Assembly (NCBI GenBank): GCA_025531455.1
Contig: JAMYHL010000031.1
Coordinates: 1 to 64,000, forward strand
Reading direction: 5' to 3'
Length of the DNA stretch: 64,000 nt
Source of the DNA: Apiotrichum sp. Y4204
Taxonomy: Eukaryota > Basidiomycota > Tremellomycetes > Trichosporonales > Trichosporonaceae
Each line of letters opens with the position of its first letter. Within the stretch, counting starts at the first letter, position 1. The position numbers were made by a program, and so were the translations under genes. The notes under the pieces were generated by a model that saw nothing but the letters and a program-made list of their open reading frames with translations, was not told where the DNA came from and ran no database searches. Below, in pieces: positions 18,180 to 33,740 of this stretch.

Positions 18180-21100
18180 ATGACCCAACCCCCAGCGACG
18201 GACGCGTCTCAGCCCCACGCCCACTCTCACTCATCATCACAGAGCGACTTTTGGACGCACGCCCTGCAGGCCGCAGAGCAACTCGAGCATCCGCCACCGT
18301 TGTCTCCCGCACGCGTTCCGCAGGTTACGCACCACTCTCTCGTCTCCCCCGATACCAGTGACATTGAGCATGAAGATACCGATGCCAATACAGCCACAGG
18401 GGCAGCATCATGCCTTTTCAATGCCCCACTTACAGGGACCTCCGGATACAAGTCGCTTGTCTCCCCAAACACGAGCGATATCGACCACGACAGCGCGATG
18501 AGTGCCGACGAAGGGAACCACGACGACCGAGTCCCATCTGTGGTCCGTGGACGCGACGCAGATGGGCCAGACAGGGATGGACTTTCTTCTTCTACCCGTC
18601 GTCCGGCCGTCCACTTCCTCGAACCCAAGCCAGGTTCTTCAGACGACGCTATGTCTCTCCCGCCGTCGTCGCCACCCGCTCCTCCACCGATAGCAGCGGT
18701 GACAACAGAGCTTAGCTATCTTCCACAGCAATCAGATGCGAGCGGCGCGCACGCCTACCTCGCGCGGCCAGAGTACGCGGGTAACGCATTCGGCGACATT
18801 GCCACCTACATGCGCAACAAAGACGTCAAAGTACAGACGCAGAACGCCGAGATTGCCGCAGCGGCTGCCGCTCTCGGCCTCTCACCCATTTTTGCGGGTT
18901 TGACGTTCTACATCAACGGGAATACGAGTCCACCGATGGAGGTCCTCCGCCGCATGGTGCTTCAGCGGGGCGGCACTGTCGTCCCTTTCGTTCGACGGAA
19001 GACGGAGATCGACTACGTTATCGCGCCCGTCCTCACCATGGCGAAGTTTCGCGAGTGGCAGAATATGAGGATCGTCACCGAAGTGTTTGTGACAGCCTCC
19101 TGTGATGCGAACAAGTTGGTTGATTGGAGGAGGTACCGTCTGCGCCCTCCCGGTGAGGCGAAGACAGACCTATTCGCGCCAAAAACCAAGGACGACAGTG
19201 TCAGCCGCGTTGACCCCCTCAATCCCTTTCAAACCCCCGCGTCGCGGACGACAGCGAGCCAGGAGAAGTCAACTCCCGCACCAACAGTAAAGTCGATCGC
19301 TCGACCCCGCAGTCCGCCTGTCGCTGCGACACAGAGCCTTTTGAAATCACTCGGTGGACGTTCGACGCCTCGTCCACCAGAAGCGAAATCGGCCGTGATC
19401 TCACACACTAAGCCTGTGGCGGCGACACAGAGTCTTTTGCAACCGCTCGTCTCCGGCGCGACTCCTCGTCTAAGCCAGACGCGGCCTGGAGACCACCCGA
19501 CCGACGTCACTCCGACGCCATCGGTCCGCGAAGATGAGACTACACCTGTAGCTGCACCGCGGGCAAACGAAACGGTTGGCACACCAACGATCTCTCGCAA
19601 GCCGTCAACTACTACAAGGGCTACTCCGGCACACGGGCGCGGGGAAGGCGCATGGGACAACTACTTCATGTACGAATCCAACAAGGCCGCAGCCGAGCTG
19701 ATGAAGTCCGACGCTTTTCGAGCCCAACACACTGCAGAGCGAGGGAACGATGCGGGCTATATTGACCAGTACTACCAGAACAGCAGGTTACACCACCTGT
19801 CCACATGGAAGGCCGAACTTCGTGTACTTGTGGCCGAGGCACGCGCTGCGGCCATCACACATGTCCCGACTGTCCTCGCTCCGCCCGGCGAGGAGCGGGT
19901 TTACTTCCATGTCGACTTTGACGCGTTCTTTGTCTCCGCCGGCCTCGCTTCCCGCCCACACCTTCGCGGACGCCCCGTGGCTGTATGCCACTCCTCCCGC
20001 GGGGGTAAGACCAGTACATCGGAAGTTGCGTCTGCCTCGTACGAAGCACGCGCCAAGGGCGTAAAAAATGGCATGTCCCTCGGCCGCGCGCGCCAGCTCT
20101 GCCCGGAGATAGAAACAATCCCCTACGAGTTCGAGGTGTACAAGCGCCATTCGGCTCAATTCTACACTGTCCTTCTGGGATATGCCGACGAGCTCGAGGC
20201 CGTAAGCGTCGACGAGGCGTTGCTCGACGTCACAGGCGCGGTACGTGCACGCACACTTGCCCCTCCCGAAGCAGGCACCAGCAATGACGACCCGGCAGTC
20301 CAGCTTGCAGAAAAGATCCGCGACGACATACGTGCAGCTACAGGCTGTGAAGTGTCAATCGGTATCGCGCCCAACATTCTGCTAGCGCGTCTCGCGACTA
20401 AGAGGGCCAAACCCGCCGGTGTGTTCCATCTCACTGTCGACGCGGCGCCAGAGTACCTCGCCAAGTTGGACGTCGACCAGCTGCCATCCATCGGCTATTC
20501 GCTCCGCGCCAAGATAACTGACGCGTTTGGCTCGACATCGTGCGGCGACCTGATATCGCAGTCTAAATCTGCCCTTCAGCGCGTTCTGGGGCCTAAAATC
20601 GGGGAAACGGTATACGCATTCCTGCGCGGGCAGGACTCGCGCCGCCTGGAACCCGACAAGGAACGGCGCTCCGTGTCCGCCGAGATGAACTACGGTATCC
20701 GCTTCCGAAACAGCGACCAGGCGGAGAAGTACGTCCGCGATCTGGCCGCCGAGGTCGCAAAGCGGCTGAGATCTATTGGTGCCAAAGGCCGGCACATGAC
20801 GCTGAAGATCATGGTACGGCATCCAGACGCCCCGATCGAGCCGCCGAAGTTTCTAGGCCACGGGCGTTGCGAGACGATCAACAAAGGCGGGCCGCTCCGC
20901 GCTCTCACCGACCAGGACACGGTCATCGGCGACGAAGCCGTGCGTTTCTTGCAGAGCATGCGGCTGGATCCTACTGAGCTCCGCGGCGTTGGCATCATGA
21001 TCACCAAGCTAGTCATTGGGCCCGGCAAGGGCCAGAGCCGGCTCGATTTCGCCAGGCGAAAGCCCGAGAGTGAGAGCAGAAGTGATACCGAGGTTCCACC

Positions 21101-22235
21101 AGGTTTCGAGCCATCCCCAGACGATCTTGATGATGGGGCAGTCGCCTCTGAAGCAGAGGGCGTGGCAGACGCCGTCATAGATGAACAACCCTCGCGGGAA
21201 CTTGCATCCACGTCCCTGCTGAATACACGTCTGGTTCCCTCCAAAGCTGCTCCTCTGGGCCCCAGTGGCCCTGCCGAGGAACCCCTCCCACCGACCCAGA
21301 TCGACCCGGAATTCCTTGCTGCGTTGCCCCCAACGCTACGCCGCGAGGTGGAGGAGGACCATGCTGCTCGCAAGCGCAGGCGACCAACAGCCGAGGCACA
21401 GACCTGCCTGGAGGTGCAGCGAGATGCAAAACGACAGCAGCGCCACCCCGCCGCTCACATCACGCGCCAGTTGCGCCCCAAGTTGAAAACCCAAATGGGC
21501 GCAAAGGATATCGCTCAAGGCGCTTTGTATGGGGCGTGGTCGCGTGCAAATGGGAGTCCTCAACCTGGCCCGAGCCGCATGGTGGATACCGTCGGCGCTC
21601 ACGACCACGCGTCCTCGACCGTCGACTCTGACAGCGACATCGAGGTTCTCGGCGCGTCGCCGTCCAAGGTATGCGGCGTTCCGACCGCCGAGCTGCGTGC
21701 ACTCGGCGTGGACCCAGACGTCTTTGCGGCGCTTCCGCCCGACATGCAACGTGAAGTGCTGGATGGTGAACGAGATCGGTTACGAAGGCAGAAAGAGCGA
21801 AACCGTCGTGCGAACACGAATGGCAACGCCACGCGGAGTCGAAACGGTAGTCGACAGAACAGTCGCGCTCCTGAAGCGCCCGTCGTGCGCGTCTCCGTAC
21901 CCGTACGCCCTGCGCTGTTCGGCGCCCGCTCTACAGACGACGTGTGTTCCGTCCTTACGCGCTGGGTTTCCTCACGCCCCGTGCCCGCAGATCAGGATGC
22001 TCAGCGTGTCGCGAGCTACCTCGTGAAATGCATGCGAGGGATTGGCGGGATTGAGCACGTCAGCGCTCTGCTCCGCTGTGTCCGGGGTTTGCTACGGGAC
22101 GCCGAGATTCACAAGAACCGCGGAGAGGACGTCGAGCTTGATGTTCCTGCGTGGTGGGCCGCTTGGGAGGGCATGAAAGCCGTCGTGGACGCCGAGATGT
22201 CTCACCGCTTTGGAACAGGGTTGAGGCTTGACTAA
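18180..22235 (+). CDS. REV1: DNA repair protein REV1, Y-family polymerase
   Basis: One uninterrupted exon encodes 1351 residues; the ATG at 18180 (MTQPPATDASQ) is preferred over the in-frame one at 18051, which precedes unlikely sequence. REV1 is the deoxycytidyl transferase and scaffold of translesion synthesis. In order: a Ser/Pro-rich N terminus; a BRCT domain at about 236-318 (FAGLTFYINGNTSPPMEVLR to DYVIAPV); a Y-family catalytic core with HVDFDAFFVS (D579) and SVDEALLDV (D678, E679), then finger and little-finger regions up to about 950; two ubiquitin-binding motifs, IDPEFLAALPPTLRREV near 1041 and VDPDVFAALPPDMQREV near 1177; and a REV1 C-terminal domain at about 1255-1340 that in relatives binds Rev7 and other polymerases. 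It is the only large intronless multidomain gene in this block. Confidence 0.96.
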   Translation: MTQPPATDASQPHAHSHSSSQSDFWTHALQAAEQLEHPPPLSPARVPQVTHHSLVSPDTSDIEHEDTDANTATGAASCLFNAPLTGTSGYKSLVSPNTSDIDHDSAMSADEGNHDDRVPSVVRGRDADGPDRDGLSSSTRRPAVHFLEPKPGSSDDAMSLPPSSPPAPPPIAAVTTELSYLPQQSDASGAHAYLARPEYAGNAFGDIATYMRNKDVKVQTQNAEIAAAAAALGLSPIFAGLTFYINGNTSPPMEVLRRMVLQRGGTVVPFVRRKTEIDYVIAPVLTMAKFREWQNMRIVTEVFVTASCDANKLVDWRRYRLRPPGEAKTDLFAPKTKDDSVSRVDPLNPFQTPASRTTASQEKSTPAPTVKSIARPRSPPVAATQSLLKSLGGRSTPRPPEAKSAVISHTKPVAATQSLLQPLVSGATPRLSQTRPGDHPTDVTPTPSVREDETTPVAAPRANETVGTPTISRKPSTTTRATPAHGRGEGAWDNYFMYESNKAAAELMKSDAFRAQHTAERGNDAGYIDQYYQNSRLHHLSTWKAELRVLVAEARAAAITHVPTVLAPPGEERVYFHVDFDAFFVSAGLASRPHLRGRPVAVCHSSRGGKTSTSEVASASYEARAKGVKNGMSLGRARQLCPEIETIPYEFEVYKRHSAQFYTVLLGYADELEAVSVDEALLDVTGAVRARTLAPPEAGTSNDDPAVQLAEKIRDDIRAATGCEVSIGIAPNILLARLATKRAKPAGVFHLTVDAAPEYLAKLDVDQLPSIGYSLRAKITDAFGSTSCGDLISQSKSALQRVLGPKIGETVYAFLRGQDSRRLEPDKERRSVSAEMNYGIRFRNSDQAEKYVRDLAAEVAKRLRSIGAKGRHMTLKIMVRHPDAPIEPPKFLGHGRCETINKGGPLRALTDQDTVIGDEAVRFLQSMRLDPTELRGVGIMITKLVIGPGKGQSRLDFARRKPESESRSDTEVPPGFEPSPDDLDDGAVASEAEGVADAVIDEQPSRELASTSLLNTRLVPSKAAPLGPSGPAEEPLPPTQIDPEFLAALPPTLRREVEEDHAARKRRRPTAEAQTCLEVQRDAKRQQRHPAAHITRQLRPKLKTQMGAKDIAQGALYGAWSRANGSPQPGPSRMVDTVGAHDHASSTVDSDSDIEVLGASPSKVCGVPTAELRALGVDPDVFAALPPDMQREVLDGERDRLRRQKERNRRANTNGNATRSRNGSRQNSRAPEAPVVRVSVPVRPALFGARSTDDVCSVLTRWVSSRPVPADQDAQRVASYLVKCMRGIGGIEHVSALLRCVRGLLRDAEIHKNRGEDVELDVPAWWAAWEGMKAVVDAEMSHRFGTGLRLD

Positions 22236-22969
22236 TGATAACGACTGTAGCTATGACTGTACAGTACCATGTATAACTATCCTTACGGCGGTTCGGCCAA
22301 TAACGAGACCGTACTTACAAGCACTGCCTGACGAACGATGACGGGGCCTAACGCAACTACGCTGTACTGCACACTGGTCTTACGGCGGGTATCAATGACC
22401 AGGAGGCACTCGGATCCTGGACTGTCTCATTGCAGATGCTACCTGGGATAGAATACGAGATGCGCTGTACCTGGTGACAGGAATCACGGACTAAACCCAT
22501 TCAACACCACTTTGAAACCTAAAACCCACGCAGAACGACCGTCAAGGTTGGTGCCTCATCCCCCACGCGGCCCCACGCATCATCGGCCGTACATGTGACC
22601 CAGAGTGCCTACCTTGGCAGGTCCGCTCCATACCAGCCCTCACATCTCGGAGCCCCAATTGTTTAAATTGAGGAATCTTGGGAGGCCCCATATAGCGTTG
22701 TGCCGGCATGGAGGATCATCGTCGGTAGTGAAGCAGCTAAACTCATTCATTCCTTTACACCAGAATGTCACACTAAACCGAGGACCACTCTCTCCTTGAC
22801 GACCAAACAAAGCTGACCCAAACGGAGCTGATCTAAACAAGCTGACCGCGACAGTTTGCAGTCTCGCGCCGGAATGGAGAGGGCCTATATAAAAGTCCTC
22901 CAGCAAGCGGAGACTCACATTCCCCCTCATTCTCCTCCGCAACACCTTACCGCTAAAGCAGTCCTCACA
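22236..22969. other. Intergenic region upstream of the eight-cysteine array
   Basis: No gene is supported. A GTACATGTGAC..AGAGTGCCT string near 22590 recurs, diverged, near 23835, suggesting shared flanks. The TATATAAAAG at 22886-22895 serves the first array gene. Confidence 0.5.
22886..22895 (+). promoter_or_regulatory. TATA box of array copy A
   Basis: TATATAAAAG lies 75-84 nt before the ATG at 22970. It supports the chosen start, because no upstream coding exon fits between it and the ATG. Confidence 0.6.
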
Positions 22970-23413
22970 ATGTCCGACCTTAATCGCAGCGAAACGAACT
23001 TCACCATCGAGTGGAAAAAAATCTCAGCGGACTGTCCCAACCCAGAGCTTACTACTCTAGGTGCCGACGGCATCCCCAACTGGAACAGCAACTTCAGCGA
23101 CTCAAACACCTTTTGCACAATCACCAACGTGTCCTACGCTCTATCGTGCTGCATGGCGTTGGGAGAGATGGCTGCTACCAACTGCAATTGGGGCGTCTGT
23201 CTCCTATACAACCCACCAGAGGACAAGTGGGCGGAGTGCGCCGCAAGACTTGCGAGACAGCTGAACGACTCGACGACACCGTCGGCCAAATGCGTGGATG
23301 GGACAATCATGAGAATCCGCGTGAACAAGGCGAGAAACCACTCTACCCGGCGCGCCACCCTCGTCCCCATCGCCATCGTCGTTTTGCTTGCCGCTGCCGC
23401 AACGCTGGCTTAG
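22970..23413 (+). CDS. Array copy A, eight-cysteine protein with C-terminal membrane segment
   Basis: Intronless, 147 residues, the most diverged intact member. It begins MSDLNRSETNFTIEW, where the other copies have W.PTP the A copy has WKKIS. The cysteine pattern is kept, including TNVSYALSCCMALGEMA, where other copies read SYVYPCC. Sequons are NRS, NFT, NFS and NVS. The last 16 residues (PIAIVVLLAAAATLA) are hydrophobic and follow a basic stretch (RVNKARNHSTRR), fitting a C-terminal membrane anchor with a very short end. There is no N-terminal signal peptide. Function is unknown. Confidence 0.75.
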   Translation: MSDLNRSETNFTIEWKKISADCPNPELTTLGADGIPNWNSNFSDSNTFCTITNVSYALSCCMALGEMAATNCNWGVCLLYNPPEDKWAECAARLARQLNDSTTPSAKCVDGTIMRIRVNKARNHSTRRATLVPIAIVVLLAAAATLA

Positions 23414-24206
23414 GCTACGGCATGCAGTACATCTCGTCCCAATGGAACATACTGCCGCAGCCGATCGCCATGTTCGTCATACTCTACCGATGCATGTATT
23501 ACAAACTGTAGTGTCGACGTCAAGCTGAAGTCTGTCCCGGGCCACGTCACGGGTATGGAGACAACCCCCCGGAGGCGCAATGGTGCATCTCAGATTACAT
23601 CGTTCACAGTTATTGCCAAGGTTAATTCGAACAACGTGCTTGAGGGCGGGGGCAGCGCTCGCCGCTGGAGACTATGATAGGCAAACTCGTTGAGGAACTG
23701 TCCCATGTGCCGGAGGCACACAACTATCAGTACTGTCGGACTACCTTGGCGGTCGCGGCGAGACTACACGAGAGGTCGGCATCTCTCATAAGGTTTGTGC
23801 TAAAGCTGCCGCATCGCCACATGGCACTGCCTACTGTATGTACATGTGACTGGGAGTGCCTCCATTGATGGCAGTGAAAACAGTGCTCTGAGTACTGCTG
23901 CACGAAGTGTACTGCTGGCATCAAGAGTGAAAGTAGTGTGTTTTTCTGTTCATGTGTCCTTGGGATCTTGTGTGGTGATTAAGGACATGAAGCTTGATTG
24001 CTCCCATCGGCACACCCTGGGGCAGGACTGTCAGATGATGAATATGATCAGATGATATACACAAGCTTGTTCCTTCGACCCCACCACATGTTTCCGACGG
24101 CAGGGAGGATGAGATTATGCCCATACAGCACTATAGAAGACGCGCTGCCCCTAGTGGCGAATGGCGAAGAGATCTACCTCTTCACCATACTTCATCGTTA
24201 TCCGAC
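23414..24206. other. Spacer between array copies A and B
   Basis: No gene is supported. A degraded TATA-like CTATAGAAG at 24129-24137 precedes copy B. Confidence 0.5.
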
Positions 24207-24768
24207 ATGTCCGGCCTGAACAGAAGCCACACAAACTTGACTGTCGAGTGGCAGCCGACCCCGTCCGACCTACCGACAAGCTACAATGTCTCGCAGAAGT
24301 CCCAGTTGTGCAAGCCGGACCCAGACCACAACATCTCGAACATGACGAATTCGTTGATCATCGCCGATTGGGATGACCCGATCGCCGACACTGACAGCGT
24401 GTGCACGATTGCCAACACGTCGTACGTCTACCCGTGCTGCCAGGCAATCAAGGGCGATGCGCGTCTTACCTGCTACACCACTGCCTGCCGTCTCCCCACG
24501 TCAGTGAAAGACCAGTGGTCCGAGTGCGCTGTGAAGCTTGCTGACCAGGTTAACGATTCGATCCCGTTGACCAAACTGCCAGCCCGGGGAGCTAATCAAC
24601 GCCAACCGCGAGAGAAACCGCAACCGCACGACGGAGGACAGGAGCGAAAGTGCCCAGAACCGCGCCCCCAAGCGCAGGACAGCTTCTCCCGTTTCCTTTG
24701 TCATGCTGCTCCCCGCTGTAGCGGCGATGGCGTACGGCGACGCCGATATGTGGGCGCTTTACTCGTAG
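24207..24768 (+). pseudogene. Array copy B, frameshifted eight-cysteine protein
   Basis: The first 122 codons match the family: MSGLNRSHTNLTVEWQPTP, then SVCTIANTSYVYPCCQAI and TACRL with a normal WSECAVKLADQVND. After PLTK near 24573-24576 the frame shifts by one base. The original frame then runs as an Arg/Pro-rich tail to 24827, while the shifted frame continues the family pattern with CQPGELINANRE and a hydrophobic end (SPVSFVMLLPAVAAMA) to a stop at 24766-24768. So an extra base, real or a sequencing error in the window, breaks the gene. If real, the product lacks the eighth cysteine and the membrane segment. Confidence 0.7.
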
Positions 24769-25208
24769 CCGTTAAGCATGCACTTCATTTTGTTATGCTG
24801 CAGTTTGCCTGGCTGTACGATTCCTGATTTGCCCTCTCGACGGGGCAAATGCGGTCAGATGGCAAGCTTTGGATAAGATGTGTGCCTCACAACTAGTCAA
24901 GGCACTGAGGCACTAGTACTGCATGCAACCGACCGACCACTACAGACACATGACCACCGTGAATGTGACCAACCGCGCGCGTCATCAGTACACAGTGGCA
25001 CTCCAACAATTGTTGTATCTACTTGAACTTGACATGCTGAGAGTCTTGTGCTTGAAATGGCATCTCCCCTACACAGACAGCCTGACAACGGACAACCGAC
25101 GCGAGTGCGAGCAGCGTTGCAGTTTGGAAACTGAAAGGATTTAAACATGGTCCATCGAACGGCGAGCCAAACACTCGCGCACGCTTTCTACTCTCTACAA
25201 CATCCGCC
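24769..25208. other. Spacer between array copies B and C
   Basis: No gene is supported. No clear TATA box is seen before copy C; the nearest A/T-rich string is ATTTAAAC at 25139-25146. Confidence 0.5.
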
Positions 25209-25697
25209 ATGTCTAAGAATAGGAGTTACACAAACTTTACCGTCCAGTGGCAGGCGACGCCCAACCTCCCGCTGGCGTACAATGCGACGGGCAACGAACA
25301 CTGCAAGCACGGACTGCAGGACACCGATGTGGACGGAGTAATGCTTCCCAACGACTGGAACGAGGTCGTTGCCGACAGCGACATCATTTGCCAGATCGGC
25401 AACGTCTCGTATGTCTACCCCTGCTGCCAGGCGATTGGAATCGACGCACGCTTCACCTGCCATAGTATCGTATGTCGTGTCCTCGCGGCCCGCGAGGATC
25501 AGTGGGACGAGTGTGCCGTCAAGCTTGCGGCCCAGGTCGGCGATGAGCCACCGTTCACCCAGTGCCAGCCTGCGAGCGTTATGAACCACAACCGCGAGCT
25601 CAACGAGGCAGCTCCCCGAGTGCCTGGCGTCCCGGTCGCGACCATCATCCTCCTCGGGATTGTCGTGCTGCTCGCTGCTGTGACAGCTGTGCCGTAA
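25209..25697 (+). CDS. Array copy C, eight-cysteine protein with C-terminal membrane segment
   Basis: Intronless, 162 residues. It begins MSKNRSYTNFTVQWQATPNL; the core is IICQIGNVSYVYPCCQAIGI, DARFTCHSIVCRV and WDECAVKLAAQVGD, with CQPASVMN before the tail. Eight cysteines are present in the family spacing, and the sequons NRS, NFT, NAT and NVS. The C terminus (VPVATIILLGIVVLLAAVTAVP) is the longest hydrophobic segment of the family, about 20 residues, and long enough to span a membrane. No signal peptide is seen. Confidence 0.8.
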   Translation: MSKNRSYTNFTVQWQATPNLPLAYNATGNEHCKHGLQDTDVDGVMLPNDWNEVVADSDIICQIGNVSYVYPCCQAIGIDARFTCHSIVCRVLAAREDQWDECAVKLAAQVGDEPPFTQCQPASVMNHNRELNEAAPRVPGVPVATIILLGIVVLLAAVTAVP

Positions 25698-26196
25698 GCC
25701 GCAGGAGTTGTGGCGGCCCGCTTTTGGCCTCCACTACGTCCTTACGGTCCGCAAGTACAGGCGCGTAAGCGGTCTTGATACATCAAATCACCCGGTTCTT
25801 CTCTGTATCTCCAAACAATAAGCATGAGTGACCCTCTACTTGAAACAAGTCGGAGCTATCCGTACCAGTCCTGTTGCGCTCATGGGAACAAGCACCTCCG
25901 TGACGTCAGACGCATCAGCAAGTGTGGAGCGTTGCGAACAATCTCCTATCGAGGCACAATGAGGTCCTACTAGAAATCCGTCGGATCGATCCTCCGGATT
26001 CAACAGCACAGGAAATGATTCTAGGAGATGATAAGGTTATCCGAGATGCTTGACATTGGATGATGGCCACCCCGACACCAACCCTGACTGAGAACAGACA
26101 ACAGACGGCGGTGAGCAGCCTTCAGACAGGGCATATAAGACGATGCCATTGAGGGGTAGGACTTGCATGTACTCTTCCCCCGCAACAGTATCCACA
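25698..26196. other. Spacer between array copies C and D
   Basis: No gene is supported. CATATAAGA at 26132-26140 is the probable TATA box of copy D, about 57-65 nt before its ATG. Confidence 0.5.
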
Positions 26197-26676
26197 ATGT
26201 CCGTAAGCAACACCTCAAACTTCACGGTCAAATGGCAGCCAACGCCCGACCTCCCGATGATGGGCTCGGGCAGCGACTGTGATCATGGGCTGGCGACGGG
26301 TGGAGCATCCGCCGGCAATGACCCCCGGACGACTCCCCGGCCGGTTTGGAACGAGACCCTGGCTGATGGCAACTTGGTCTGCACGTTGAGCAACTCTTCG
26401 TACGTCTACCCTTGCTGCGAGGCGATGGGCATCGAAGCACGATTCTCCTGCAACTCGACCGTATGCCGCATCGACGCGGCCCGCGAGGGCGAGTGGTACC
26501 AATGTGCCGACAAGCTCGCGAATGAGATCAACGACCAGGCGCCGCTGAAACAGTGTGAGGTCGCGAAGTTCGTGGACCAAACACCGCCGAACAACCACGC
26601 AGCTAAGCAAGTGCCCGCCATCCCCCTCGCTATCGTAGTGTTCCTTGCAGCTGCGGCAGTCGTGCTTCAATCTTGA
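26197..26676 (+). CDS. Array copy D, eight-cysteine protein with C-terminal membrane segment
   Basis: Intronless, 159 residues. It begins MSVSNTSNFTVKWQPTPDLP and has the core LVCTLSNSSYVYPCCEAMGI, EARFSCNSTVCRIDAAREG and WYQCADKLANEIND. An insertion of Gly/Pro/Thr-rich sequence after CDHGLATGG makes its loop differ from the others. The tail is NNHAAKQVPAIP followed by LAIVVFLAAAAVVLQS. The NHAAKQVP stretch before the hydrophobic end is nearly identical in copies D, E and F, so these three are the youngest duplicates. Confidence 0.82.
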   Translation: MSVSNTSNFTVKWQPTPDLPMMGSGSDCDHGLATGGASAGNDPRTTPRPVWNETLADGNLVCTLSNSSYVYPCCEAMGIEARFSCNSTVCRIDAAREGEWYQCADKLANEINDQAPLKQCEVAKFVDQTPPNNHAAKQVPAIPLAIVVFLAAAAVVLQS

Positions 26677-26908
26677 GGGGATGCGATCTATCATCCACAC
26701 ATCCCTGGGCGATAAGGAGGCACGTACTTTCCTTTACTAGTTTCCGTGGATCTGTCTGATTCCCATCAGCGTAAGCGGCCTGTGACATGAGATGTACTGC
26801 ACATTGTCGGGACCGCAATGCTATGTAGTTATCCTTGCAGGAGTGATCGTCCTCGCCTCGTTCCCGGGTTCTCTCCATGCAAGTACCTAGTATGTCTAGC
26901 AAACTACA

Positions 26909-26992
26909 ATGTCAAACGTCCCTGTCGCGATCCTCCCCCCTCACCGTGGTCATACCCACATACGACTTGTCTCTGTGACAGCTGTGCCGTAA
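26909..26992 (+). pseudogene. C-terminal relic of an array gene
   Basis: A 27-residue open frame reads VPVAILPP near its start and ends VSVTAVP, matching both ends of copy C's hydrophobic tail (VPVATIILL ... AAVTAVP). The DNA at 26973-26998 is identical to 25678-25703, which spans the stop codon of copy C. Everything upstream of the tail is missing. It shows that a further copy once lay here or that the 3' end was duplicated alone. Confidence 0.7.
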
Positions 26993-27594
26993 GCCGCACG
27001 GGTTGCGATAGCCGGCGACCCCCGCGCCCACGCCTGGTTCCCGGAGCACCGGGGTGGTCCGCGATCTCCATACTTTACGTCAAACCGTTTCGTTTCTCTC
27101 ACCACATTCTCGTACTCGGTAGCAGGCACGAGTCCCCTTCCCTCGGTCGCATTCGAAACGAATGGTGCCTGCAGCTCTTCACATGGCTCCTGTTGTGCTC
27201 TTGAACGGGGACACCGCATTGAGCTGGAGGGGTGAGGGGCAGAGGAGCGGAAGTTGGGACCTGTGCTCTGCCCGCCATGCATTCTTAGGTGGCCAGAGCC
27301 AGGCACTTATGCACTGGACGCACTGCCCCATCTGGCGTGCGTTCAGACGCTTGCTGTCCCCATTGTCTACCGCGTGGGCAGTGTGGTTTGTGCGAAGGGA
27401 ATTAACTCTACATTGCAGTGTCGTCGGATCCTGACAAGCTCTCAGGTCTCTGGATTCTGAGACCTTGGATCTAGAGCTCGTTCGAGATGCTCGGCACACG
27501 CACTAGATACGACAAACCAGATCTTGGCTACCTGGCATTAACTCTACCTGACAACGGATCGCAGGCGGCCGGTGTGTAGCCCGCAGACCTATCG

Positions 27595-27610
27595 CATATA
27601 AACGGGCCCC
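27595..27610 (+). promoter_or_regulatory. Conserved TATA element of array copy E
   Basis: CATATAAACGGGCCCC lies 53-68 nt before the ATG at 27663. The same 16 bases occur before copy F at 28738-28753 at nearly the same distance. Confidence 0.65.
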
Positions 27611-27662
27611 AAGAGATCAGCCTTACACATCCTCTTCCTGCCCTTGCAACACATTATTCACG

Positions 27663-28142
27663 ATGTCCTTGAGCAACGCTACCGCAAACATCACGGTTAA
27701 ATGGCTACCAACGCCAGATCTCCCGCGGATGGGATCGAACACGGATAGGTGCAATGTATCCGAAGGCCACCTCAACGGGAATTTCTTCGGTACTTGGAAC
27801 GACCCATTGCCCGAGTCCGATATGGTCTGCAAGATAGGCAACGACTCGTACGTCTATCCCTGCTGCGAGGCGGTGGGCATCGAGGCCCGACAAGCATGCG
27901 GTTACACGGTGTGCCGCATCAGTGGCGCGAACGAGTACGGGTGGAACCTCTGTGCAGCAACGCTCGCCGCGCAACTCGGCGATACGAGGCCCGAATCGAG
28001 CTGTCAGCCCGCAAGCGTGATCAACAAAGAGCGTGAAGAGGTTGAGGGGAAGGAAGAGACGACGACGAACCATGCAGCCAAGCAAGTACCCGTCGTCTCC
28101 CTCGCTATCGTAGTGCTCCTTGCGGCCGCCGCCGTGGTCTAG
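27663..28142 (+). CDS. Array copy E, eight-cysteine protein with C-terminal membrane segment
   Basis: Intronless, 159 residues. It begins MSLSNATANITVKWLPTPDL and has DRCNVSEG, MVCKIGNDSYVYPCCEAVGI, ARQACGYTVCRISGANEYG and WNLCAATLAAQLGD. A charged stretch (KEREEVEGKEETTTNHAAKQ) precedes VPVVSLAIVVLLAAAAVV. Both invariant sequons are present (NIT, NDS). It shares promoter, start and tail with copy F and belongs to the D/E/F subgroup. No signal peptide. Confidence 0.85.
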   Translation: MSLSNATANITVKWLPTPDLPRMGSNTDRCNVSEGHLNGNFFGTWNDPLPESDMVCKIGNDSYVYPCCEAVGIEARQACGYTVCRISGANEYGWNLCAATLAAQLGDTRPESSCQPASVINKEREEVEGKEETTTNHAAKQVPVVSLAIVVLLAAAAVV

Positions 28143-28802
28143 ACATGCTGTCCTTTCGCAATCGGGCAATAACTACTGTTGTACGATGATCGCTCCGCCG
28201 TCGCTCATACCGTCGCACCCTGCGCCGTCGCGCCGCCCCTTGCGCCACATTCTCGTACGCAGGAGCACCCACAAGTGATCTCTTCACTCCATCGCATTCG
28301 AAACGAATGGTACCCGTATAGATGTAGCTCTTTGCATGGCTCCTGCTGTGGGGAGCACCGCCCAGTGTTTGAGGGATGAGCGGCAGAGGAGCGGGAGTCG
28401 GGACGTGTGTCCTGTGTTCGAGTGTTCCTGTGTACCATGCTGTCCTCAAGCGCTCAGGCACTGGCATGCACTGCACGCATTGTTCGCCCGGCGCGCGTTC
28501 CAGGCGCTTGCTGTCCTACCCGCGTCGGAAGTACACTCGGAGACATTTCTTCATCCGAGAGGGATCAACTCTACAGTGCGGTGTCCTCAGATAGCTCAGA
28601 TCTTAGGTTCTCCAGATCTTAGGATCCCGAATCTTGAATCTTGAGCTTGTCCGGGACGTGTGGTACTAGAGGGGACAGACCAGATCATGGTTGCTCGCAA
28701 CACTGACTCTATCCGACGACGGACTGCAGAAGTATCGCATATAAACGGGCCCCATCGAGAGATCAGCCCCACTCATCCTCTTCCCCTGCAACATTATCCA
28801 CG
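28143..28802. other. Spacer between array copies E and F
   Basis: No gene is supported. Most of it is the diverged partner of 27100-27440. CATATAAACGGGCCCC at 28738-28753 is the promoter element of copy F. Confidence 0.55.
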
Positions 28803-29285
28803 ATGTCCTTGACCAACGCCACCTCCAACTTCACGGTCAAATGGATGCCAACGCCCGATCTCCCGCGGATGGGAGCAGACACGGAGGACTGTACGAAACC
28901 CAGAGCCGACAACGTGAATTCGACTCGCTTGGGTACCTGGAACGAGACATTGCCCAAGGGCGACAGCGTCTGCACGTCAGGCAACAACACGTACGTTTAT
29001 CCCTGCTGCGAGGCAGTCGGCATCGAGGCGCGATTCGACTGCGGCTTCACGGCGTGTCACATCGGCCCTGAGAGAGAGAACCAGTGGTACGAGTGTGTCC
29101 ACAGGCTCTCGGAGCAACAGGGTGACGACTGGCCCATCGCGGACTGTCAGCCAGCAAAGCTGATCAACGAAAACCTTGAGCGGAAGAAAGCAGAAGAGGC
29201 GCCAAAGAATCACGCAGCCAGGCAAGTGCCCATCGTCTCTTTCGCTATCGTGGTGTTCCTTGCGGCCGCGGCGGTCATTGCGTAA
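28803..29285 (+). CDS. Array copy F, eight-cysteine protein with C-terminal membrane segment
   Basis: Intronless, 160 residues. It begins MSLTNATSNFTVKWMPTPDL and has EDCTKP, SVCTSGNNTYVYPCCEAVGI, ARFDCGFTACHIGPEREN and WYECVHRLSEQQGD. The tail has NHAARQVPIVSFAIVVFLAAAAVIA. Compared with copy E only the residues between conserved cysteines differ much, so the duplicates diverge mainly in loops. The CR after the sixth cysteine has become CH. Confidence 0.85.
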   Translation: MSLTNATSNFTVKWMPTPDLPRMGADTEDCTKPRADNVNSTRLGTWNETLPKGDSVCTSGNNTYVYPCCEAVGIEARFDCGFTACHIGPERENQWYECVHRLSEQQGDDWPIADCQPAKLINENLERKKAEEAPKNHAARQVPIVSFAIVVFLAAAAVIA

Positions 29286-29857
29286 GCTGGGGGACACGCG
29301 GTCCTCCCTTCATCGGGGGATTAGAAGGATTATTGTACTATTCCTTGTTATGTACTCTCGGAGCTGCAGTACAAATTCAGCTAGCATGCGAGGCCGATTG
29401 TCCCTGTCGCTCTCGTGAGGCGATAAGGCACTTGGTGGTGATTCATGACACACTGCCGCTGCTTCTGTTTGTTCCTCGAGACCTTTCGGTTCTTCTGTGA
29501 ATGGTCTCGGGATCTCGGGAAATACAATGTACAGGACTGTGTGGTACAGTTTAATGTCAAGCTTAATGTCGTCCAACAGTGTCTATGACATTTAGAGATG
29601 TTGCGACCATATTCGGTCAACGACAAGTCATCACAACAGGCATCTCCCTCACTCCCCGTCTCAAGGAAACCTCTCGCTGTCAGACGTTGCGTCATCCTGT
29701 CGATAACGAGATAGGTCTGGCGGTTCCGACAGATACTGCTGCTGGTGCAACTAATGTCGTGCTCGAAGCTGAAGCATATAACATGTTCCACAGAGGCGTG
29801 GGTGACAAACGTCACACCCCAACACCTTCTCCCCTCATCTCATAGCAACCATCTATC
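29286..29857. other. Spacer between array copy F and pseudogene G
   Basis: No gene is supported; a minus-strand open frame of 144 codons has no recognisable feature. No TATA box resembling those of copies E and F is seen before copy G. Confidence 0.5.
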
Positions 29858-30378
29858 ATGAGCAGCTTTGACAGAGGAAACAGAACGCTCCAGTGAATGG
29901 CCACCCCATCCTCACACTGCTGTACGACTCGTCCTCTTCCGAGAACGTTGACTGCACGCATCAGCAACACGAAATGGCAAGTTCAGGACACGCTCACGTC
30001 ACCCAAGCGGTCGTCCACCCGAAAAGGAACAAGAACGAGAGACTACCCGACTCAGTAGTGCTGCTGCAATGTCGCGAACGCATCTTACGTGTTTCCATGC
30101 TGCGTGTATGTCGGCAGCGACGCGCATTTCGAGTGTCGCGGGACACTCTGCCAGATCGATGCTTCCAGCGACTGGAGTCTGAACCGCCAGCTGACCTTTG
30201 ACGCCTGGAGCAATTGTGTCAGGACGCTCGCAGGCGAGATCAACGACACCAAACCGATGGACAGCTGCCTGACTGCACATGACGGTGAACTCCCTCGCTG
30301 GTGACAGCGCCTGGCCCACCGGGTGCCCAGCTTGAAGTCGCCCCCCTTGGTCTACTTGTGGCCGCGGCTGCCCACTGA
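29858..30378 (+). pseudogene. Array copy G, pseudogene of the eight-cysteine family
   Basis: The start MSSFDRGNRTLQ is followed by a TGA where every intact copy has the conserved Trp. After ATPSS the reading continues in the same frame to a TAG, and then resumes family sequence: CNVANASYVFPCCVYVGSDA, CRGTLCQIDAS, WSNCVRTLAGEIND and DSCL. After the stop at 30302-30304 a shifted frame gives LGLLVAAAAH, the remnant of the hydrophobic end, with a stop at 30376-30378. Two stops and one frameshift make it a clear pseudogene, still colinear with the family over its whole length. Confidence 0.85.
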
Positions 30379-33424: not shown

Positions 33425-33740
33425 AGCTGTAGCCCATGCAGCTCATGCAGCTCAAGGCTCGCCCAATTCATGATTCCGCTCAAATATGTGTAGCCCCTCC
33501 CCTCAATAAGATATATGCGTGATGCAAATACATGTTCATGTGACTGTAAAGGCATGAATGTGTTGCCAGAATGAGTAGGCGAGCGTCAGGTGATACGTCG
33601 GGGCGCGCGCCCGACAGTACTTAGAACGACGAGGACGGCGCACGGGCCGTCGACTGCGGTGAGACAGGGGGCGACGCATGGGCCGTCGCAACACTATGCG
33701 TGTTGTGTACAGTTCATACTGTACGTCTATACAGTAGACT
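33425..33740. other. No gene seen
   Basis: 3' flank of the P450nor gene. No coding region supported. GTCGTC/GACGGC-rich sequence near 33600-33690 includes CACGGGCCGTCGAC and CATGGGCCGTCGCA. Confidence 0.5.

Follow-up and report, generated by a model that had tools for sequence, protein, structure and literature searches.

A head-to-tail family of eight-cysteine proteins in Apiotrichum sp. Y4204 with GPI-type C-terminal tails and no N-terminal signal peptide found

Textbook glycosylphosphatidylinositol (GPI)-anchored proteins require two signals. Here we describe a family of short proteins encoded in a 64,000-nucleotide stretch (the window) of Apiotrichum sp. Y4204 (assembly GCA_025531455.1, contig JAMYHL010000031.1, positions 1 to 64,000), in which a GPI-like signal was found at the C-terminus and none at the N-terminus. 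The GPI signal, as excerpts of PMC7125958 describe it, has small residues at omega and omega+2, followed by some 10 hydrophilic and then some 20 hydrophobic residues; the same excerpts state that yeast GPI precursors enter the endoplasmic reticulum (ER) mainly post-translationally, that the C-terminal signal contributes to entry and that GET aids the strongly hydrophobic precursors. With about half of full confidence, we favor the reading that the family consists of GPI-anchored surface (probably cell-wall) glycoproteins that lack an N-terminal signal peptide and would enter the ER post-translationally via their own C-terminal GPI signal.

The window array contains six head-to-tail copies (copies 1–6, or w1–w6), beginning at 22970, 24207, 25209, 26197, 27663 and 28803. 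A second, collinear array holding copies 1–5 (b1–b5, the counterparts of window copies 1–5) is located on contig C141; all remaining genes are named by contig. The features of the window array are as follows.

22970..23413, forward strand: copy 1, intact, 147 residues, eight cysteines, six sequons; homeolog at L019 1871-2311 on C141.
24207..24827, forward strand: copy 2, carrying a frameshift near 24.57 kb; the family sequence runs to about 24575.
25209..25697, forward strand: copy 3, intact, 162 residues, eight cysteines.
26197..26676, forward strand: copy 4, intact, 159 residues, eight cysteines; the protein behind the first structure model.
26973..27016, forward strand: remnant, final codons and 3' flank resembling copy 3; the same text is present on C141.
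27663..28142, forward strand: copy 5, intact, 159 residues, eight cysteines.
28803..29285, forward strand: copy 6, intact, 160 residues, eight cysteines; no separate counterpart on C141.
30059..30355, forward strand: decayed remnant of a further copy, with the CC motif, later cysteines and one internal stop; partly present on C141.

The original prediction had counted six coding copies and two remnants; the array and both remnants stood, and the number of intact copies is five. After the frameshift in copy 2, the eighth cysteine and the tail are out of frame, and the C141 homeolog of this copy is intact. A six-frame search of the organism's own genome (48.9 Mb, 182 contigs) gave 18 matches: seven on the window contig, five on C141 and one each on C150, C106, C173, C136, C116 and C117. 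Full-length loci number 17, and 16 of them have an intact frame. In this search, copy 4 matched the other window copies with expectation values (E) from 2.5e-43 to 4.6e-18; since, in addition, the frame is intact on both sides in four of the five window copies that have a C141 counterpart, the family goes beyond chance. The unlinked pairs C150/C106, C173/C136 and C116/C117 retain the architecture of the array family, with just 27% identity between C116/C117 and copy 4. Genome searches with three divergent members yielded no further credible member among the inspected matches. The C139 match (E 0.0035) lies in a reading frame without the cysteine pattern and the C117 stretch at 1,090,962 (E 0.094) holds no family open reading frame, so both were rejected; other weak matches were found on C112 and C98 (E 0.38 and 0.39, respectively) and on C101 (E 0.18).

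The tail of the family looks like a GPI-attachment signal. As had been predicted, the C-terminus is hydrophobic: an uncharged hydrophobic run of 15–25 residues reaches the end of all 16 intact proteins. An [NS]-x-[AS] motif is present 24–31 residues from the end in 16 of 16, vs 3.0 +/- 1.5 when the rest of each protein is shuffled; some proteins carry a second possible omega site. Because [NS]-x-[AS] precedes the run and at most a few uncharged residues follow it, we read the tail as a putative GPI signal rather than as an ordinary membrane anchor. The call is rule-based, using small omega and omega+2 residues, a spacer and a terminal hydrophobic run. In the same genome, a GH72 gene and CFEM genes, whose proteins we take to be GPI-anchored, end in tails with this arrangement. 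The candidate tails of the intact window copies are listed below.

23336..23410, forward strand: GPI-type tail of copy 1, from candidate omega site N-H-S.
25602..25694, forward strand: GPI-type tail of copy 3, from candidate omega site N-E-A.
26593..26673, forward strand: GPI-type tail of copy 4, from candidate omega site N-H-A.
28068..28139, forward strand: GPI-type tail of copy 5, from candidate omega site N-H-A.
29208..29282, forward strand: GPI-type tail of copy 6, from candidate omega site N-H-A.

The domain that precedes the tail contains eight cysteines, in the same order, in all 16 intact proteins; C116 and C117 carry one extra cysteine at the very end. The shared eight-cysteine pattern of the original prediction is therefore retained in the intact proteins, with two amendments: seven of the eight cysteines form invariant alignment columns, with the first displaced in copy 1 and in its homeolog, and copy 2 loses the eighth. 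Two sequons had been described as invariant, which holds within the window and fails genome-wide. The early N-[FLI]-T sequon is present in six of six window copies and in 12 of the 16 intact proteins (C173/C136 have a sequon two residues later in its place), and the N-x-S/T-Y sequon in six of six and 14 of 16, respectively. The W.PTP motif, assigned to all copies, was found in four of the six window copies and not in the remaining two. N-x-S/T occurs 91 times in the 16 proteins, vs 27.0 +/- 4.7 in composition-preserving shuffles, and 51 times in nine non-redundant members, vs 15.4 +/- 3.5, although the members are related and the counts not independent, so that these shuffle statistics overstate significance; the reversed motif S/T-x-N occurs 18 times in the same nine members. 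The roughly threefold enrichment of sequons makes it probable that the domain faces the ER lumen or the cell exterior, and together with the conserved cysteines it lends support to the lumenal or extracellular type of domain that had been proposed.

No signal peptide precedes this domain in the genes as read. The maximal 9-residue Kyte-Doolittle mean within the first 45 residues of the 17 proteins is 1.01, indicating no hydrophobic N-terminus, and none of the in-frame upstream extensions is hydrophobic (16 of 16 long enough to score). The claim that no copy has a signal peptide thus extends to all 16 intact proteins, down to 27% identity.

These could instead be ordinary GPI-anchored proteins with the signal peptide on a missed upstream exon, an explanation that we regard as unlikely. 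Three CFEM genes of this genome (L060, L061 and L062) do carry the signal peptide on a separate first exon; with such a split leader, the open frame of the second exon, read upstream, would give a false signal-less protein. L060–L062 caution against reading exons of this genome singly. Excerpts of PMC7125958, moreover, present the dual-signal rule for GPI proteins as general. We therefore scanned 900 nt upstream of each gene for exons that begin with ATG, encode a hydrophobic start and can be spliced in frame through a canonical intron of 30–400 nt. As controls, the evident leader exon was recovered in three of three CFEM genes, two of which are homeologs and all of which were chosen after their leaders had been seen. 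In this canonical scan, no spliced signal-peptide exon was found in 12 of the 17 family genes. The other five (29%, vs 15% in shuffled upstream DNA) gave 18 candidates. The top candidates in w3 and b3, like the sole one in b4, fall in the hydrophobic tail of the preceding copy itself, and such tails account for the excess over shuffles; a further b3 candidate is absent from w3, and the w5 and C106 candidates are absent from their homeologs. A first strict scan gave candidates in 0 of 17 genes, vs 12% in shuffles, and a relaxed scan in nine of 17, a rate equal to the shuffled one (51%). The relaxed homeolog test gave 75 matching candidate pairings for w3/b3, the two listed lying in the tail of the preceding copy, and four for C150/C106.

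The DNA directly upstream of the genes also argues against a missed exon. In four of eight homeolog pairs, the 60 nt that precede the ATG contain indels that break the frame, and the gap between copies 2 and 3 is short, about 380–480 nt in both arrays. In 13 of 17 genes, TATA[AT] stands 60–133 nt ahead of the ATG; w2, w3 and b3 have no exact match, and b2, with TATA[AT] at -150, was left out of the count. The longer TATA[AT]A is found between -140 and -45 in 10 of 17 genes, vs 2.3% expected. The boxes of four window copies are as follows.

22886..22893, forward strand: TATA box of copy 1, 84 nt before the ATG.
26134..26138, forward strand: TATA box of copy 4, 63 nt before the ATG.
27597..27602, forward strand: TATA box of copy 5, 66 nt before the ATG.
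28740..28745, forward strand: TATA box of copy 6, 63 nt before the ATG.

It had been argued that TATA boxes 55–85 nt before the ATG leave little room for a missed exon. The boxes are there, yet the argument is weak on its own because of the three CFEM genes that carry the signal peptide on its own exon. There is no credible conserved hidden signal-peptide exon within the searched range, and the missing signal peptide survives, as a puzzle, the direct search for one.

Several points weigh against signal-less GPI proteins all the same. The canonical scan covered introns up to 400 nt, a single 5' exon and leaders within 900 nt; the relaxed scan gave an upstream frame with a long hydrophobic stretch for C116 (none in its homeolog C117), and the mildly hydrophobic upstream frames of C150 and C106 begin alike, with different splice sites. 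These frames of C116 and C150/C106 would be the best remaining places for a hidden leader. The relatedness of the members, raised above for the sequon counts, inflates the significance of the shuffling statistics. On its own, a hydrophobic segment at the C-terminus normally leaves the N-terminus cytosolic, and the basic residues before the hydrophobic run would favor that outcome too; the GH72 control likewise carries one basic residue at this place. In part of a 2021 review (PMC8745461), GPI signals are said not to act independently of an N-terminal signal peptide, and an excerpt of PMC12572126 calls GPI-anchored and C-terminal clients of SND harder to reconcile. If our reading is right, the family would be an exception to the dual-signal rule; within the sampled portions of the open-licence literature on signal-less GPI or membrane proteins, no fungal GPI family described as lacking a signal peptide was found.

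Under signal-less GPI anchoring, the finished chain would leave the ribosome reduced and unfolded. An eight-cysteine chain presumably stays unfolded in the reducing cytosol, and so translocatable. Its C-terminal hydrophobic GPI signal would be caught by the post-translational factors that serve GPI precursors, namely Sec62/63, GET and perhaps SND. The whole short chain would cross into the ER, then form disulfides and be N-glycosylated, and it would be joined to GPI at its [NS]-x-[AS] triplet. We infer the topology, glycosylation and GPI attachment of the family from protein sequence. As for the role at the surface, the variable loop and the copy turnover lead us to guess at recognition, adhesion or defence.

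Two other arrangements of the chain were weighed. As tail-anchored proteins, the members would keep the C-terminal segment in the membrane and the cysteine domain in the cytosol. The basic residues before the single hydrophobic segment would suit this arrangement, as would the missing signal peptide; a threefold sequon excess and eight conserved cysteines would go unexplained in the cytosol, and a conserved [NS]-x-[AS] with little or nothing after the hydrophobic run (16 of 16) speaks against it, and we hold it to be quite improbable. The original prediction had suggested an N-out single-pass protein, its domain translocated by the C-terminal anchor segment, or unconventional export, either of which would accommodate an extracellular-type domain without a signal peptide, but the segment instead has the layout of a GPI signal, with a conserved GPI-type site and almost no residues after the run to serve as a cytosolic end, which makes this proposal very doubtful.

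Comparison of the two arrays revealed how the copies have turned over. The genome appears to be a hybrid, judging from its homeolog pairs. Identity between C141 and the window is 89–92% in the three largest blocks, up to copy 5, and 72–75% to the right of copy 5. C141 copy 5 has a 5' flank and coding sequence like those of window copy 5 and a 3' flank like that of window copy 6, the switch being located at the end of the coding sequence. Window copy 5 is 81% identical to copy 6 and 92% identical to its own homeolog. On the simplest reading, copy 6 is older than the split of the arrays, and C141 lost it in a fusion caused by unequal crossing-over. The comparison thus bears out the local birth and decay of copies predicted from the window alone, through the fusion pattern of copy 6 and C141 copy 5. 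Between copies 4 and 5 on C141 (L019 6056-6216), we observed an element resembling a miniature inverted-repeat transposable element, 135–140 bp in length with imperfect inverted ends. It has no insertion in the window array; its 14 genome matches, itself included, are 74–100% identical, and one lies at window 33559-33694.

The further suggestion that the copies are selected for diversity found no gene-wide support. The ratio of nonsynonymous to synonymous substitution rates (dN/dS) is 0.12 to 0.81 in eight homeolog pairs (C150/C106 0.81, C116/C117 0.67) and 0.36–0.57 in eight paralog comparisons; none of these 16 pairs exceeds 1. Pooled over homeologs, the corresponding ratio of proportions of differences (pN/pS) is 0.43. 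By region it is 0.55 in the first 45 codons, 0.42 in the middle and lowest, 0.18, in the tail, where it rests on 28 differences in seven pairs, with copy 2 excluded. These values indicate purifying selection, which is relaxed in some pairs; nothing gene-wide points to positive selection.

That the family is an unrecognized one is supported by the profile and sequence searches. No match above a curated cut-off was obtained from Pfam (11 members) or NCBIfam (5 members), the sub-threshold matches being weak (e.g. VirB7, E 0.02, and DUF6631, E 0.03), and no sequence match in the PDB up to E 10. In a Pfam search up to E 10, the five intact window copies matched no family; the CFEM profile remained unmatched in these and in five further members. 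Among 5.8 billion public proteins, a set from which a Rev1 control retrieves Vanrija, Cutaneotrichosporon and Cryptococcus proteins and from which short unannotated genes could be absent, the sole relative found is P0001, near-identical to copy 5 with one residue of difference. No relatives were found in phages or, with one pattern searched, in viral contigs; nine pattern matches in prokaryote contigs gave 0 confirmed relatives. The family looks lineage-restricted.

The fold is predicted to be a beta-alpha-beta-beta-alpha-beta sandwich, and Foldseek gave no match at E <= 0.001 in the PDB or in viral models. Identification as a KP6-like killer-toxin fold was rejected: in the first model, KP6 scores on a par with many other proteins, and KP6 is absent from the best 50 matches of the second. 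By these models, kinship to KP6-fold proteins is no more than a lead. Among viral structures, the copy 4 model (m8575bbf7bd75) best matches a 98-residue iridovirus protein that is uncharacterised (E 0.014, probability 1.00, TM 0.55 by target, 16% identity).

Immediately before the array lies a Rev1-type DNA polymerase gene of 1351 uninterrupted codons (window 18180-22235), the nearest named relatives of which are Vanrija and Cutaneotrichosporon proteins (49–52% identity), in keeping with Trichosporonales. The gene to the right of the array (L019 from about 9222 on C141; near 32000 in the window) presumably encodes a nitric oxide reductase of the P450 type, preceded by a leader sequence. Elsewhere, two homeologous contigs hold giant multi-CFEM frames, C10:99178-105564 and C102:485285-491683; they are uninterrupted over 2264 and 2306 codons, respectively, with 21 CFEM-domain matches each. 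The C10 frame opens with a signal-peptide-like sequence, and both frames are partly contained in L052–L059, L063 and L064.

A family with apparently only a C-terminal signal, kept over deep paralog divergence and in homeologs, offers a direct test of ER entry driven by the GPI signal. If the reading is true, the tail alone may bring a protein into the secretory pathway, and some surface proteins would escape secretome pipelines in which a signal peptide is mandatory.

Among described systems, the family shares with fungal GPI-anchored proteins (GH72, CFEM) an omega-like site, a spacer and a terminal hydrophobic run, as well as a cysteine-rich, sequon-bearing domain. Different from them, no N-terminal signal peptide was found in the 16 intact members, and the members scanned have no Pfam match to either GH72 or CFEM. 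With the C-terminal signal found and the N-terminal one not, we describe the family as working like a GPI protein, a variant rather than a standard member. Like tail-anchored (type IV) proteins, it has no signal peptide and one C-terminal hydrophobic segment; it differs from them in its sequon-rich eight-cysteine domain and its GPI-type cleavage site. Compared to the secreted fungal proteins of the KP6-fold, killer-toxin-like type, the family is signal-less and GPI-tailed.

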